Source of the DNA: Gimesia alba
GTDB taxonomy: Bacteria; Planctomycetota; Planctomycetia; Planctomycetales; Planctomycetaceae
DNA: 64,000 bases
Assembly: GCF_007744675.1 (NCBI RefSeq)
Contig: NZ_CP036269.1
Coordinates: 620,001-684,000, forward strand
Reading direction: 5' to 3'
A program made the translations under genes and the position numbers. Shown here one piece after another: positions 37,699 through 43,804 of this stretch (position 1 is its first letter; every line of letters begins with the position of its first letter). A model generated the notes under the pieces. That model searched no databases. It saw only the letters and a program-made list of their open reading frames with translations, and was not told where the DNA came from.

Positions 37699-38997
37699 AT
37701 GAAACTGCAGATTGCCGCTTTTCGATTTGATGTCACACCTCCCCTCGGCCATTCCTTGTGCGGCGGCTGGATTCCGTCTGCTGCGAAAATTGAAGATCCA
37801 CTGGAAGCGATCGGGTTTGTGATCCTGTGGGAAGGAGCGCCGATGGTGGTCTGCTCGGTCGACTGGACGGGGCTTTGTAACGACGCCCATTATCAGTGGC
37901 GCAAAGCCTTAGCCGATGCGGCGGGGACCACTGCGGACCGGGTGGCGGTCCAGTGTGTGCATCAGCATGATGCGCCGTTTGCCTGTCTGGAGACCGATCA
38001 GATCGTACGAGCTCAGGGCGATTTGCCGCCCAACCTCGATCCGGAATTTTTCAAAGTCTGTCTGCAGCGGGCCGGTGCTGCCGTGCGGGAGAGTCTGAAA
38101 AGACCTCGTCGATTAACACACATTGCGGCGGCCCAATCTCAAGTGGAGCAGGTAGCATCGAACCGTCGGATTCTGAACGAGGCAGGCAAGATCTTAAAGA
38201 ATCGGAGTGTCGCCGCCAGCAGTGATGATATTCGCGACTTACCGGCGGGGGTGATTGATCCCTGGTTGAAGACAGTGGCTTTTTATGACGGCCGGGAGAA
38301 GGTGGCGGCCTGTTATTATTACGCCGTCCATCCCATCAGCTATTGTTGCACCGAAGGGAATGTGACCAGTGAATTCGTCGGTCATGCACGGCGGCTCAAA
38401 GCGGAGCATGATACGCCGGGTTGCACGCACGTCTATTTCACGGGCTGTGCGGGCAATATTAACGCTGGAAAATACAACAACAGTTCCCACAGGGAAAATC
38501 GGCAGGTACTGACACAGCGGATCTTTGCAGCGATGGAACAGGCGTCGGAACAATTGCGACCGGAGCCCGTTAAAAAAATCCGTTGGGCGACGGCTGATTT
38601 TCTGCCTCCCGTGAATCAGGTATTTTCGGCGGACGAACTTGAGAAGCAGATCAACGATCATGCGCGACGGGTGGTGCATCGCAATCGGCCGGCGTTCACA
38701 CTAGCTTGGCTCCACCGCCATGCACAGAAAAAGCCGATTACATTAAGCGCGTTGCACCTCAATCAAATTTCCTTACTCCATCTGCCCGCCGAGCCCTTTG
38801 TGGAATATCAGCTACGTACCCAGATGCTGCAGCCAGACCGCTTTGTCGCGACCGCCGGTTACGGTGATGGGGGCCCCTGGTATTTGCCGACGGCCGAAGC
38901 GTATTACCAGGGGGGCTATGAAGTCAGCGTGGCATTCAGCGGCCCCCAGGCAGACGGCGCGCTAATGCAGGGTATTCAAGCACTATTTGTGAGTTAA
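37699..38997 (+). CDS. Neutral/alkaline ceramidase-like protein
   Basis: A 432-residue protein. The N-terminal part resembles the neutral ceramidase catalytic domain: AFRFDVTPPLGHSLCGGW, FVILWEGAPMVVCSVDWTGL and VAVQCVHQHDAPFAC (a His pair expected to bind zinc). YYYAVHPISYCCTEG, VYFTGCAGNINAGKY and TAGYGDGGPWYLPTAEAYYQGGYE follow. There is no signal peptide, unlike most ceramidases, so it is probably cytoplasmic. Planctomycetes carry many proteins of this type with no known substrate. It lies 89 bp after ndh on the same strand and its stop overlaps the end of the convergent metal-permease gene by 4 bp. Confidence 0.78.
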   Translation: MKLQIAAFRFDVTPPLGHSLCGGWIPSAAKIEDPLEAIGFVILWEGAPMVVCSVDWTGLCNDAHYQWRKALADAAGTTADRVAVQCVHQHDAPFACLETDQIVRAQGDLPPNLDPEFFKVCLQRAGAAVRESLKRPRRLTHIAAAQSQVEQVASNRRILNEAGKILKNRSVAASSDDIRDLPAGVIDPWLKTVAFYDGREKVAACYYYAVHPISYCCTEGNVTSEFVGHARRLKAEHDTPGCTHVYFTGCAGNINAGKYNNSSHRENRQVLTQRIFAAMEQASEQLRPEPVKKIRWATADFLPPVNQVFSADELEKQINDHARRVVHRNRPAFTLAWLHRHAQKKPITLSALHLNQISLLHLPAEPFVEYQLRTQMLQPDRFVATAGYGDGGPWYLPTAEAYYQGGYEVSVAFSGPQADGALMQGIQALFVS

Positions 38998-40322
38998 TCC
39001 GAATTCTCTTCGGGGGGAATCGGGCGGCCGTGCGGGTCCTGGTCGGTTTCGAGGGTATCGGCATTGAGCTTTTCGCGTAAATCGCGGTCAGTAAAGTGTT
39101 CCAGTCGTTCGGCCTGTTTGTGAATGGTTTCGGCTGTCATGCCCGCATGTTCGACCAGATAGTGTTCCCACAATCGATGCGAGCGGACGAGTTGACGGGC
39201 CATGTCGCGACCGGTTTCCGTTAATTCATAAGCTCCGTTGGTGTCCTTGATCTGTCCCTGTTTTGTGAGATAGCGAAGTGTGAGCTGCGTTGGAACAGGA
39301 CGCGAGAACAGAATGTCGCGCAGATAATTGACATCCGGTTTTTGCTGTGGATCGCGTTCTTCGATGCGGTACATGAGTGCGATGATATCTTCGGCGAGGA
39401 TTTTCCAGGCGAGAATCTGGCGACGGACAAAGATGACAATGATCCCGTGCCGGGGACCAAACAGGGCCGCGAAAACGAACAGCAGGCCCGAGGCGACGGC
39501 CATCATGCCGGCGGTCGACGTACTTTGATATCCAAACCAATGGGGGACGGTGATGGCGCTGATATGGCCGGTGATCGCGGCGAAAATCGCCAGGATCACA
39601 CTGAGCACGAGCATGCGGCCCAGTCGATCAGTCAGCATATAGGCGGCTGCCGGCGGTACGACAAACATGGCGACCACCAGAATATTTCCGACCGTTTCAA
39701 AACTGGCGACCGCGGTGACGGCGACCAGAGTCATCAAAGTGTAATGGATCATCGTGGCGTTAAAGCCGGTGGTGGTGGCGAGTGCCGGGTCGAACGAACT
39801 GAGTTTCAGTTCTTTCAGGAAAAAGATCACGAACAGCAGATTGATTAACAAAACTACCGAGAGCACGACAACCACGCGCGGGATTTCCCAGCCCGCAATC
39901 AGGATCGTGTCGAGCGGCGTAAGTTCAATTGCTCCATAGAGAACGCAGCCCGGGTCCAGGTCGACGTGGTCGGCAGCCTGCACGATCATCACCAGTCCCA
40001 AAGCGAACAGTGATGTGAAGACCACACCCATCGAGGCGCCTTCATCGACTTTACCGAAGCCGCGAATCCATTCGGTAAACAGGGCGGTCAGAATTCCGGC
40101 AATCACGGCGCCCACAAACATGGGCAAACTGCTGCGGCTGTCGCTGATCATAAAGGCGGCCGCCAGACCGGGGAGAATCGCGTGTGTGATCGCATCGCCC
40201 AGCATGCTCATTTTTCTTAAGACCAGAAAATTGCCCAGCAGTGCCGTCGAGGCGGCGCACAAAATTCCCGCAACAATAATCCAGCCATCCAGAAACCAGT
40301 TCCAGTTTTCCAGTCCCCCCAT
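38994..40322 (-). CDS. Metal ABC permease fused to a DtxR/MntR-like domain (second permease)
   Basis: A 442-residue protein. Residues about 10-300 are an ABC-3 permease of the Mn/Zn/Fe family, with about eight membrane segments, LGDAITHAILPGLAAAF and GNILVVAMFVVPPAAAYML. Residues about 305-425 match MntR/DtxR: the N-terminal helix AEDIIALMYRIEE, a winged helix ending YELTETGRDMARQLVRSHRLW, and the dimerisation and metal part KQAERLEHFTDRDL. Aligned with Bacillus MntR, the ligands map to Asp312 (D8), His382 (H77), Glu405 (E99), Glu408 (E102) and His409 (H103); the E11 position is Ala. The gene starts on the last base of the preceding permease stop (TGATG). It is the last of four genes. Confidence 0.9.
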   Translation of the reverse strand: MGGLENWNWFLDGWIIVAGILCAASTALLGNFLVLRKMSMLGDAITHAILPGLAAAFMISDSRSSLPMFVGAVIAGILTALFTEWIRGFGKVDEGASMGVVFTSLFALGLVMIVQAADHVDLDPGCVLYGAIELTPLDTILIAGWEIPRVVVVLSVVLLINLLFVIFFLKELKLSSFDPALATTTGFNATMIHYTLMTLVAVTAVASFETVGNILVVAMFVVPPAAAYMLTDRLGRMLVLSVILAIFAAITGHISAITVPHWFGYQSTSTAGMMAVASGLLFVFAALFGPRHGIIVIFVRRQILAWKILAEDIIALMYRIEERDPQQKPDVNYLRDILFSRPVPTQLTLRYLTKQGQIKDTNGAYELTETGRDMARQLVRSHRLWEHYLVEHAGMTAETIHKQAERLEHFTDRDLREKLNADTLETDQDPHGRPIPPEENSD

Positions 40323-41833
40323 CAGGTTGCCCTCCGTGTACCAGACTGGTGTCCGTTGGCTTTTTCCTGCTGGATCTCGATCGCATGCGGGCTCTGCAGG
40401 ACTCCTGCGGTCGACTGACGAACGAGTAGCGTTTCCAGTTCGGCAATGACTTCGGGTTCTAAAACGTGTTCGATGGCGTCGGCATCCTGATCGACTTTGC
40501 TGGCCGCGACGTCAGCGTATGTGATGAGATAGAGTTCCCACAAACGGTGTTCGTGAACAATGCGTGCCGCTTCCAGAAGACCGGCCTTGGTCAATCGGAT
40601 TTGATCTGCCTGCAGGGAGACGACTAACTGGTCCCGCTGTGCCCGATTCACGATTTTTTTCAGTTTGGCCGGTGACCAGCTTCGCATTTTCAGTAAAGTG
40701 GACATGGGGACGAACGTGGATTCTGCGGTCTGTTTTTCGTTGAGCAGTCCCCGTGCTTCCAGATACTCATACAAGCCGCGCAGCAGGTGTTGTCGATTCA
40801 CTTTCGAATTTAACTGATGCCGTCGCAGTTTGCGGATCAGGATGCCGCGGGGAATGCCGAAGACCATGCTGAAGAGAAACATGGCGGTCGCGACGAGCAC
40901 AATCATCGCTCCTGAGGGAAGATTCGGGAAGATGGCACTCATGGCTGAGCCGATCATGCCGCTGAGGGCTCCCAGTATCAGAGCCACGAGTGACATATAC
41001 GCCATTTTTTCTGTCCAGAAGCGGGCTGCTGCGGGGGGGATGACGAGCAGGGAAATCATCAGGATCAATCCAACAGCCTGCAGGCCGATGATCGTGACGA
41101 CGACGACCAGACCCATTAAGAGCATGTCCAGCAGTACTACCGGGAAGCCGCGCGCATTGGCAAAGCCTTCATCAAAACAGAGCAGCGTCAATTCCTTATA
41201 TAATAGGATGGAGATCAGCATGCAGGTCAGACCTGCGGAGCCGATGAGCCAGGCATCGCTGGCGACCATGGAAGCGGTCTTTCCATAAATAAATGATTCG
41301 AGGCCGGCGGCGTGGCCGGTCTGCATCTGTTGGACGATGCCCAAGAGAGCGATCCCCGCTCCAAAGAAAACACTGAGCACAATGCCGAGGGCGGCGTCTT
41401 CTTTTAAGCGAGTCAGGTTGCGAATCAAGAGAATGCCGCCGATTCCAAGCAAGCCGCTGACGGCAGCTCCCGCCAGCAGGATGGGCAGCGATTTCCCGTT
41501 CAGGCCCAAAGAGGTGGCGATGATGAAGGCGATGGCGATGCCGGGCAGGGTAGCATGGCTGAGGGCGTCTCCCATCAGGGCCCGCTTGCGTAATAATGCA
41601 AAGCTGCCGATCATACCGGCGGACATACCGAGCAGTGTGGTGCCGAGGATGACGATGCGGGTGTTGTAATCCTGCAGCAGGAACACACGTTTCCAGTCGT
41701 TCCATTCCGGGATCGCGATACTGCGGTCGGTGATGGATTTTTGAGTCTGAATCTCGTTCGAGTCGGTAGCCGCGAGAATGAAAGAGTGTGGCCAGAGACT
41801 GACGACGAGCAACACCAGCGCGAACGCCCTCAT
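40322..41833 (-). CDS. Metal ABC permease fused to a DtxR/MntR-like domain (first permease)
   Basis: A 503-residue protein. It begins with a signal-like hydrophobic stretch (about 1-22) and a ~40-residue linker before the ABC-3 permease (about 57-330), with MGDALSHATLPGIAIAFI and VGLILMISLLVIPPAAARF. After the last membrane helix comes a DtxR/MntR-like region (about 345-470). Its winged helix looks complete (PAKLKKIVNRAQRDQLVV, then IRLTKAGLLEAARIVHEH). Metal ligands are only partly kept: His429, Asp452, Glu455 and His456 align with MntR H77, E99, E102 and H103, while His349 and Arg take the places of D8 and E11. Its start overlaps the ATPase gene stop by 4 bp (ATGA). A Gln/Lys/Arg-rich tail ends it. 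Confidence 0.9.
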   Translation of the reverse strand: MRAFALVLLVVSLWPHSFILAATDSNEIQTQKSITDRSIAIPEWNDWKRVFLLQDYNTRIVILGTTLLGMSAGMIGSFALLRKRALMGDALSHATLPGIAIAFIIATSLGLNGKSLPILLAGAAVSGLLGIGGILLIRNLTRLKEDAALGIVLSVFFGAGIALLGIVQQMQTGHAAGLESFIYGKTASMVASDAWLIGSAGLTCMLISILLYKELTLLCFDEGFANARGFPVVLLDMLLMGLVVVVTIIGLQAVGLILMISLLVIPPAAARFWTEKMAYMSLVALILGALSGMIGSAMSAIFPNLPSGAMIVLVATAMFLFSMVFGIPRGILIRKLRRHQLNSKVNRQHLLRGLYEYLEARGLLNEKQTAESTFVPMSTLLKMRSWSPAKLKKIVNRAQRDQLVVSLQADQIRLTKAGLLEAARIVHEHRLWELYLITYADVAASKVDQDADAIEHVLEPEVIAELETLLVRQSTAGVLQSPHAIEIQQEKANGHQSGTRRAT

Positions 41834-43782: not shown

Positions 43783-43804
43783 AAATGTAGCCATGGCTAC
43801 ATTT
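43783..43804. promoter_or_regulatory. Perfect 22-bp palindrome, candidate MntR/DtxR-type operator
   Basis: The half-site AAATGTAGCCA is followed by its exact inverted copy. The core TAGC-N4-GCTA matches the enterobacterial MntR box as I remember it. It begins at the predicted transcription start of the metal-transport operon, a position suited to repression. Confidence 0.75.

Follow-up and report, generated by a model that had tools for sequence, protein, structure and literature searches.

The window analysed here is a stretch of 64,000 nucleotides from Gimesia alba (Planctomycetota; contig NZ_CP036269.1, positions 620,001 to 684,000), and the system in question is a four-gene cassette on its minus strand, which encodes the binding protein, the ATPase and the two permeases, A and B, of an ATP-binding cassette (ABC) metal importer. 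Both ABC-3 permeases run beyond their last membrane helix into a DtxR/MntR-like domain, as an earlier note made from the sequence alone had proposed. These tails have lost the DNA-binding helix-turn-helix (HTH) signature and have kept their metal sites, and for this reason they may act as metal sensors that restrain the pump instead of controlling genes. On balance, the alignments and structure models lead us to lean towards the tails being cytosolic allosteric metal sensors that throttle transport, and such gating appears to be the best remaining one of the alternatives that the note had offered.

Fold and metal sites of the permease tails

The profile PF02742 (Fe_dep_repr_C) matches tail B with 73.4 bits and tail A with 45.9 bits, both above the gathering cut-off of 27, and the tail match is therefore more than chance. 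It was also found in all 93 fusions from relatives that were scanned by Pfam; these had been selected for a full tail, with a tail score of more than 100 in a set thinned at 85% identity. The AlphaFold models reach a mean predicted local distance difference test (pLDDT) score of 86.7 for B and 85.2 for A. In the B model a single helix (294-323) leads from the membrane edge into the sensor domain and is followed by two helices (331-338 and 342-354), a wing of two strands and three further helices. Foldseek superposes tail B on DtxR-family repressors at 1.1-2.0 Å over about 130 columns; the matches include the manganese repressor DR2539 (8pw0; 1.5 Å, template modelling score 0.86 of the target) as well as SloR, IdeR and DtxR. 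AlphaFold and Foldseek thus agree on the MntR-like fold, and the winged helix and dimerisation fold on which the earlier note had staked its claim are present in the models. PF02742 is not among the best 25 of the 31 Pfam matches of the 271-residue ATPase; the domain sits on the permeases. Pfam found no FeoA domain in the window proteins.

Of the 129 fused tails, 12 that are short or degenerate (in L115-L121, L123, L125, L138 and L140) were removed by a coverage filter; the other 117 (61 A and 56 B) make up our tail alignment, and the ligand and linker figures therefore refer to full tails. Each permease is labelled A or B by its best score, a choice that is arbitrary where a permease stands alone; the label B was also given to one cut A gene (L128:5766-6545), whose ligands are absent from the tally of ligand sets given below. 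All 117 full tails have 15 residues between the point where the ABC-3 profile ends and the start of the first tail helix; the profile ends at the identical position in 109 of them and a single position sooner in the other 8. This fixed register, together with the continuous helix of the B model, suggests that membrane part and tail are mechanically coupled and argues against a loose hinge open to cleavage. Production of a free tail from an internal start was considered and rejected, as no conserved Met column lies near the tail start; column 317 of the B tails holds Leu in 58% and Met in 21%.

The residues to which metal binding had been ascribed in B are present as claimed (Asp312, His382, Glu405, Glu408 and His409, with Ala315 at the place of MntR Glu11), as are His429, Asp452, Glu455 and His456 of A. 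MntR is nevertheless not the best template for them, since SloR fits better and a second site had been overlooked. SloR is described as having two manganese sites, site 1 formed by His76, Glu80, Cys123 and His125 and site 2 by Asp7, Glu99, Glu102 and His103 (PMC9253540); a description of the ScaR metal site is given in PMC4805248. Site 1 aligns with His382, Glu386, Asp429 and His431 of B and site 2 with Asp312, Glu405, Glu408 and His409, so that B holds all eight SloR positions, with Cys123 replaced by Asp, and additionally keeps His401. In the SloR scheme, the seemingly lost Glu11 of MntR is not a ligand. Judging by superposition and alignment, the ligands of B are likely to converge on these two sites.

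Conservation among the relatives follows the same positions. His382, Glu386, Glu408, His409 and Asp429 are kept in each of the 56 full B tails, His431 in 55, His401 in 54 and Asp312 in 49. Fourteen tail columns are invariant in a 37-sequence B alignment; six of them are ligands, and none lies within 320-370. The site residues of A are His349, His429, Glu433, Asp448, Asp452, Glu455, His456, Ser481 and His483, where His349, itself a possible ligand, stands at the place of SloR Asp7. Across the 61 A tails, in B numbering, His is the commonest residue at 312 (36 tails), Asp is found at 401 in 46 and at 405 in 40, and Ser at 429 in 35. Many A tails share this altered set, which therefore has the look of a fixed variant and not of decay.

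Loss of the DNA-binding signature and the separate MntR

The DNA-binding profile PF01325 has no Pfam match in either window permease. It matches 32 of 32 standalone regulators, as against none of the 44 B fusions and one of the 49 A fusions (E 0.038). The standalone set comprises 37 proteins, namely 39 from the fetched loci minus two cut fusions; five of these (L103, L111, L114, L130 and the 344-residue frame of L146) were omitted from the scan on account of uncertain starts or odd make-up. We also used a 12-position HTH score, which was defined on the standalone set itself and for which PF01325 provides an independent check. It amounts to 9-12 in 37 of 37 standalone regulators and to 2-9 in the tails, where 9 is reached by three of 117 (L126, L135 and L145).

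The metal-binding domain tells a different story from the recognition helix. With ligands excluded, its mean identity is 0.42 in A tails, 0.38 in B tails and 0.33 in standalone proteins, and the tails are hence at least as conserved there as the standalone proteins. The ratio of pairwise identity in the recognition helix to that in the C-domain is 1.09 (0.97-1.24) for standalone regulators, 0.56 (0.48-0.63) for A and 0.49 (0.42-0.58) for B, after thinning of the three sets to 28, 47 and 40 sequences, respectively; the bootstrap ranges of standalone proteins and tails do not overlap. Some lone-permease tails show weak Pfam matches, below cut-off, to other winged-helix families, and because of these DNA binding is least excluded there.

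The earlier note had offered a perfect palindrome upstream of the operon as a target of the tails. The box within it, TGTAGC-N4-GCTACA, precedes the cassette in Gimesia relatives as well as in more distant planctomycetes, and it resembles the MntR box of E. coli. The same genome encodes a standalone MntR of 139 residues (C1:6958054-6958470), which scores 163.2 bits against an NCBIfam MntR cut-off of 153. With up to two mismatches allowed, the box is found in 22 of the 24 genomes that encode this MntR and in 2 of the 13 that lack it, at a p value of 6e-6 that is nominal, as the genomes are related. The count covers 37 of 38 genomes (G024 was omitted, as its locus has no binding-protein gene) and includes G200 as MntR-bearing from a 56-residue fragment at a score of 90 bits. 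The exceptions are G034 and G203, with MntR and no box, and G199 and G206, both records of metagenome-assembled genomes, with the box and no MntR. In L042, L045, L051, L056 and L059 the cassette has a divergent standalone MntR as its neighbour, and in the first three of these the box stands between the cassette and the regulator, which is 149-195 residues long as called.

Across genomes, the operator thus accompanies the standalone MntR and not the tails; going by these sequence comparisons, the palindrome is most likely the operator for the standalone MntR of the same genome. Binding of the tails to the palindrome was rejected on account of HTH decay and of the company that the operator keeps. 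The wider suggestion that the tails serve as membrane-tethered DNA-binding regulators of their own operon is not supported, given a single PF01325 match in 93 fusions and a palindrome that accompanies a separate MntR.

Fifteen cassettes have a standalone regulator of a longer kind (220-281 residues) nearby. A second palindrome, TTTTGA-N4-TCAAAA, is exact in 4 of them (L120, L121, L122 and L127) and present with up to two mismatches in L095 and L096, the other nine lacking it. In the four exact cases it lies upstream of the binding-protein gene, beside a divergent regulator of 220-250 residues. It also occurs upstream of the binding-protein gene in L132 and, with one mismatch, in L123. In the genome of the window itself, two more TGTAGC-N4-GCTACA boxes stand in tandem (C1:6942410-6942456; L156:6411-6456), directly upstream of a prepilin-like gene and about 280 bases from a divergent 132-residue frame; they are possibly a second MntR target.

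The features of the cassette are collected in the table below. Pfam finds the ABC-3 importer set complete, with the permease domain PF00950, the ATPase domain PF00005 and the ZnuA-type PF01297, and permease B is 87-92% identical to its counterparts in the Gimesia relatives L038, L040 and L057. The cassette is probably an importer of the MntABC/PsaABC type with Mn2+ as its likely substrate, to which two features point indirectly: the operator accompanies a regulator of MntR-equivalog rank, and the nearest solved relative of the membrane part is PsaBC. Three cassettes 60-63% identical to the planctomycete one come from records titled Bdellovibrionales or Candidatus Kuenenia (L050, L048 and L054), titles that are probably binning errors.

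Table 1. Positions in the window of the importer genes, the domains of the two tails and the upstream palindrome.
Feature	Position	Strand	Basis
ZnuA-type metal-binding protein, 331 residues	42751..43746	-	PF01297, E 5.3e-78
ABC ATPase, 271 residues	41830..42645	-	PF00005, E 2.4e-33
Permease A, 503 residues: ABC-3 at 57-325, then C-terminal DtxR-like tail	40322..41833	-	open frame, Pfam, AlphaFold, Foldseek
Permease B, 442 residues: ABC-3 at 15-288, then C-terminal DtxR-like tail	38994..40322	-	open frame, Pfam, AlphaFold, Foldseek
Tail A decayed winged helix-turn-helix, residues 348-414	40592..40792	-	HTH score 6/12; no PF01325 match
Tail A metal-binding/dimerisation domain, residues 415-470	40424..40591	-	PF02742 E 5.7e-12; ligand string HHEDDEHSH
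Tail B decayed winged helix-turn-helix, residues 311-367, with ligand Asp312	39222..39392	-	HTH score 4/12; no PF01325 match
Tail B metal-binding/dimerisation domain, residues 368-436	39015..39221	-	PF02742 E 1.5e-20; ligand string DHEHEEHDH
22-base perfect palindrome AAATGTAGCCATGGCTACATTT, operator-like box TGTAGC-N4-GCTACA, upstream of the operon	43783..43804	.	sequence and relatives

Distribution and asymmetry of the fusion

Of 199 genomes sampled evenly across the phylum, at least 48 have a fused tail, counted where a frame matches the membrane part of B through residue 420 or beyond; six of the 48 have degenerate tails (G015, G043, G083, G101, G163 and G190). The loci fetched for comparison were chosen by their match to permease B or to PF02742, so that the architecture counts that follow are not prevalences, and close relatives count separately. 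Scored permeases occur at 82 loci, 63 with two and 19 with one. Two full tails are found at 43 of the 63, one at 7 and none at 13. Of the 19 single-permease loci, 3 are truncated at a contig end, 6 come from split A/B arrangements and 10 are lone genes, each of these ten with a full tail (L124, L126, L127, L132, L134-L137, L139 and L145). The split arrangements belong to G024, G087 and G105 (L104-L107, L109 and L110), where A and B lie at separate loci, with an ATPase gene beside A and none near B.

The unequal ligand sets of the two copies, first seen in this one cassette, turn out to be a recurring pattern. Fifty of the two-permease loci have a full tail on one or both subunits. At 41 of these 50, exactly one subunit has the canonical set, by a definition made after the alignment had been inspected; this subunit is B in 33 cases and A in 8. 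The canonical copy is B in Gimesia; it is A in L120-L123, L129, L130 and L133, where the B tail is a stub or was not found. Where neither subunit is canonical (7 loci), the best copy departs from the set at a single position, in most cases 405. This asymmetry fits the need for one sensor per transporter, on either subunit. Both tails of L115-L119 and L125 are degenerate, and these cassettes have a standalone regulator next to them.

As to its history, we rejected the idea that a neighbouring regulator gene was recently captured to form the tails, because 36 of the 37 standalone proteins fall into one clade without fused tails; this clade has a support of 0.993 in the tail tree, the deep nodes of which are poorly supported. 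The permease tree does not tell one fusion event from several.

Several unusual forms were encountered along the way. The lone permease genes of L132, L134-L137, L139 and L145 have tails about 75 residues longer than usual, and in L135 and L137 the extra residues show a weak FeoA match below the Pfam cut-off; these long-tailed permeases may be complete three-domain DtxR fusions. L146:3743-4774 encodes a DtxR-like protein of 344 residues with FeoA matches in two stretches, in tandem with an ordinary regulator of 220 residues; it stands beside the fused tails of L124, L126 and L127 in the tail tree, with weak support. On two Deinococcus plasmids (L150 and L151) permease B continues for about 75-90 residues past the ABC-3 match. 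This extension has no PF02742 match and is at most weakly winged-helix-like, and in D. peraridilitoris a 131-residue MntR-like gene overlaps the 3' end of the permease B gene. The extension may be related to the planctomycete tails, in reduced form.

A possible brake on transport and its known counterparts

We propose that the DtxR-fold domains of A and B have been recruited as allosteric metal sensors. The two tails would meet beneath the membrane, close to the ATPases, and form a DtxR-type (hetero)dimer; cytosolic Mn2+ would fill the sites of the canonical tail, here that of B, and the pair would shift and thereby brake the ATP-driven cycle, a case of feedback inhibition, or trans-inhibition. 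Tail A would act as the conserved, differently liganded partner, and the separate MntR would handle transcription via its operator. The proposal draws, by analogy, on the precedent of substrate-binding regulatory domains on the ABC importers MetNI and ModABC. More tentatively, and with less confidence than for the reading just given, we speculate that Planctomycetota widely use manganese importers in which a DNA-blind repressor fold forms a paired, asymmetric metal brake, with one canonical two-site sensor per transporter, a partner that has a fixed different ligand set or has been lost, and a sensing copy that switched between subunits in evolution.

Other readings have to be weighed against such a brake. 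The tails might be acceptors or buffers that take Mn2+ from the pore exit and store it or pass it on without any gating. Ligands that are conserved where the DNA-binding part is not, as well as the SloR-like two-site arrangement in B, would suit this role; we nonetheless consider it rather unlikely, as the fixed linker register and the kept dimerisation fold suggest conformational coupling, and a buffer has no obvious need for one canonical and one fixed variant ligand set. Little probability attaches to an assembly clamp, in which the dimerisation fold would only hold the A-B heterodimer together and the metal would be structural. Such a clamp could keep its dimerisation domain and leave the HTH free to drift, in agreement with full tails on both permeases in 43 of 63 cassettes, but 7 of the 63 keep a full tail on one permease only, and at the ten lone full-tail loci there is no A-B pair to hold.

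Planctomycetota and Chlamydiota share a superphylum, which we count in favour of a further reading, namely that the tail is cut from the permease and becomes a metal-dependent repressor of the operon. The ligands are kept, and the architecture is that of Chlamydia YtgCR, whose released YtgR is described as a repressor of ytg and trpBA (PMC5599777, PMC7755916). Release of the tail as a repressor would be hard to reconcile, though, with an HTH signature lost in both tails and in their relatives, with a helical linker of fixed register in place of a loose hinge and with a separate MntR that accompanies the operator, and we hold it to be a poor prospect. Uncut tails that bind the operator as membrane-tethered transcription factors seem very improbable indeed. 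The winged-helix fold is retained in the AlphaFold model, the segment of helices 2-3 has a mean net charge of +3.9 in A and +2.9 in B (+2.2 in standalone regulators), and at least two of the three tails that reach an HTH score of 9/12 come from lone-permease loci. Yet the recognition helix is unconserved, the operator accompanies the standalone regulator, and where that regulator is of the longer kind, 4 of 15 cassettes have the different palindrome TTTTGA-N4-TCAAAA (two more within two mismatches).

The allosteric brake itself has to face a number of opposing points. Known trans-inhibition domains are described as sitting on the ATPase and not on the permease (PMC10710835). Glu405 is found in only 39 of the 56 B tails (His in 7, Asp in 6, Met in 3 and Ser in 1), and A tails are looser at ligand positions than B tails. 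Convergence of the ligands is read from superposition and alignment; Foldseek matches A to DtxR chains with an E value of only about 0.01, and the ligand-bearing helix of the A model (about 441-460) has a pLDDT of only about 60. The rule of one canonical set fails at 9 of the 50 loci (both subunits canonical in 2, neither in 7), and what counts as canonical was itself settled with the alignment in view. Tails are not needed for transport, since a full tail is missing from 13 of the 63 two-permease cassettes, 6 of which have strongly degenerate tails. Pairing of A with B is unproven in G024, G087 and G105, and manganese as the substrate is something that we infer.

Importers of the MntABC/PsaABC type are known mainly for their transcriptional control. 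If the brake is real, a built-in sensor with a repressor fold would add direct feedback control to such an importer and would illustrate how a transcription factor can be turned into an allosteric transporter domain; the cleaved repressor of Chlamydia might then be one branch of an older, membrane-acting fusion.

Several known systems share parts of this design. The membrane parts of A and B have their best structural match (Foldseek), a strong one in the case of A, in PsaBC, the manganese importer of S. pneumoniae (7kyp/7kyo). PsaBC has one permease gene instead of two, and its PsaC chains of 258-290 residues carry no tail, unlike A and B. With the regulators of the DtxR/MntR group the tails share PF02742 and not the N-terminal DNA-binding PF01325. 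Tail B resembles SloR/ScaR and DR2539 in its fold and has both SloR metal sites at homologous places; it differs in being fused to a permease, in the change of Cys123 to Asp, in the lack of a detectable FeoA domain and in its unconserved recognition helix. In MetNI and ModABC, as described in PMC10710835, the cycle slows when the substrate (methionine and molybdate, respectively) binds to a regulatory domain in the cytosol. The likeness extends to the proposed mode only: inhibition is established there and would have to be assumed here, and the regulatory domains lie on the ATPase there and on the permeases in planctomycetes.

The closest counterpart is YtgCR (CT069) of Chlamydia trachomatis, in whose metal importer operon an ABC-3 permease carries a C-terminal DtxR-like domain with metal ligands reported as conserved (PMC5599777). 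Compared by description, the two systems agree in this placement. YtgCR is cleaved, and the released YtgR represses the ytg and trpBA promoters by binding DNA, according to the accounts in PMC5599777 and PMC7755916, whereas the planctomycete tails have no HTH signature. As described, the Chlamydia fusion is in YtgC and not in YtgD, and both planctomycete permeases are tailed. The lack of a separate MntR/DtxR, which we used as our own criterion for a YtgCR-type system, does not hold here, where the genome has a 139-residue MntR that accompanies the operator. Among the open-licence papers listed in our searches we found no account of a permease-DtxR fusion from planctomycetes or others outside Chlamydia, nor of a DNA-blind form. 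Altogether, the fusion of a permease with a DtxR-like domain is known from Chlamydia, and what is new is its double, DNA-blind form.

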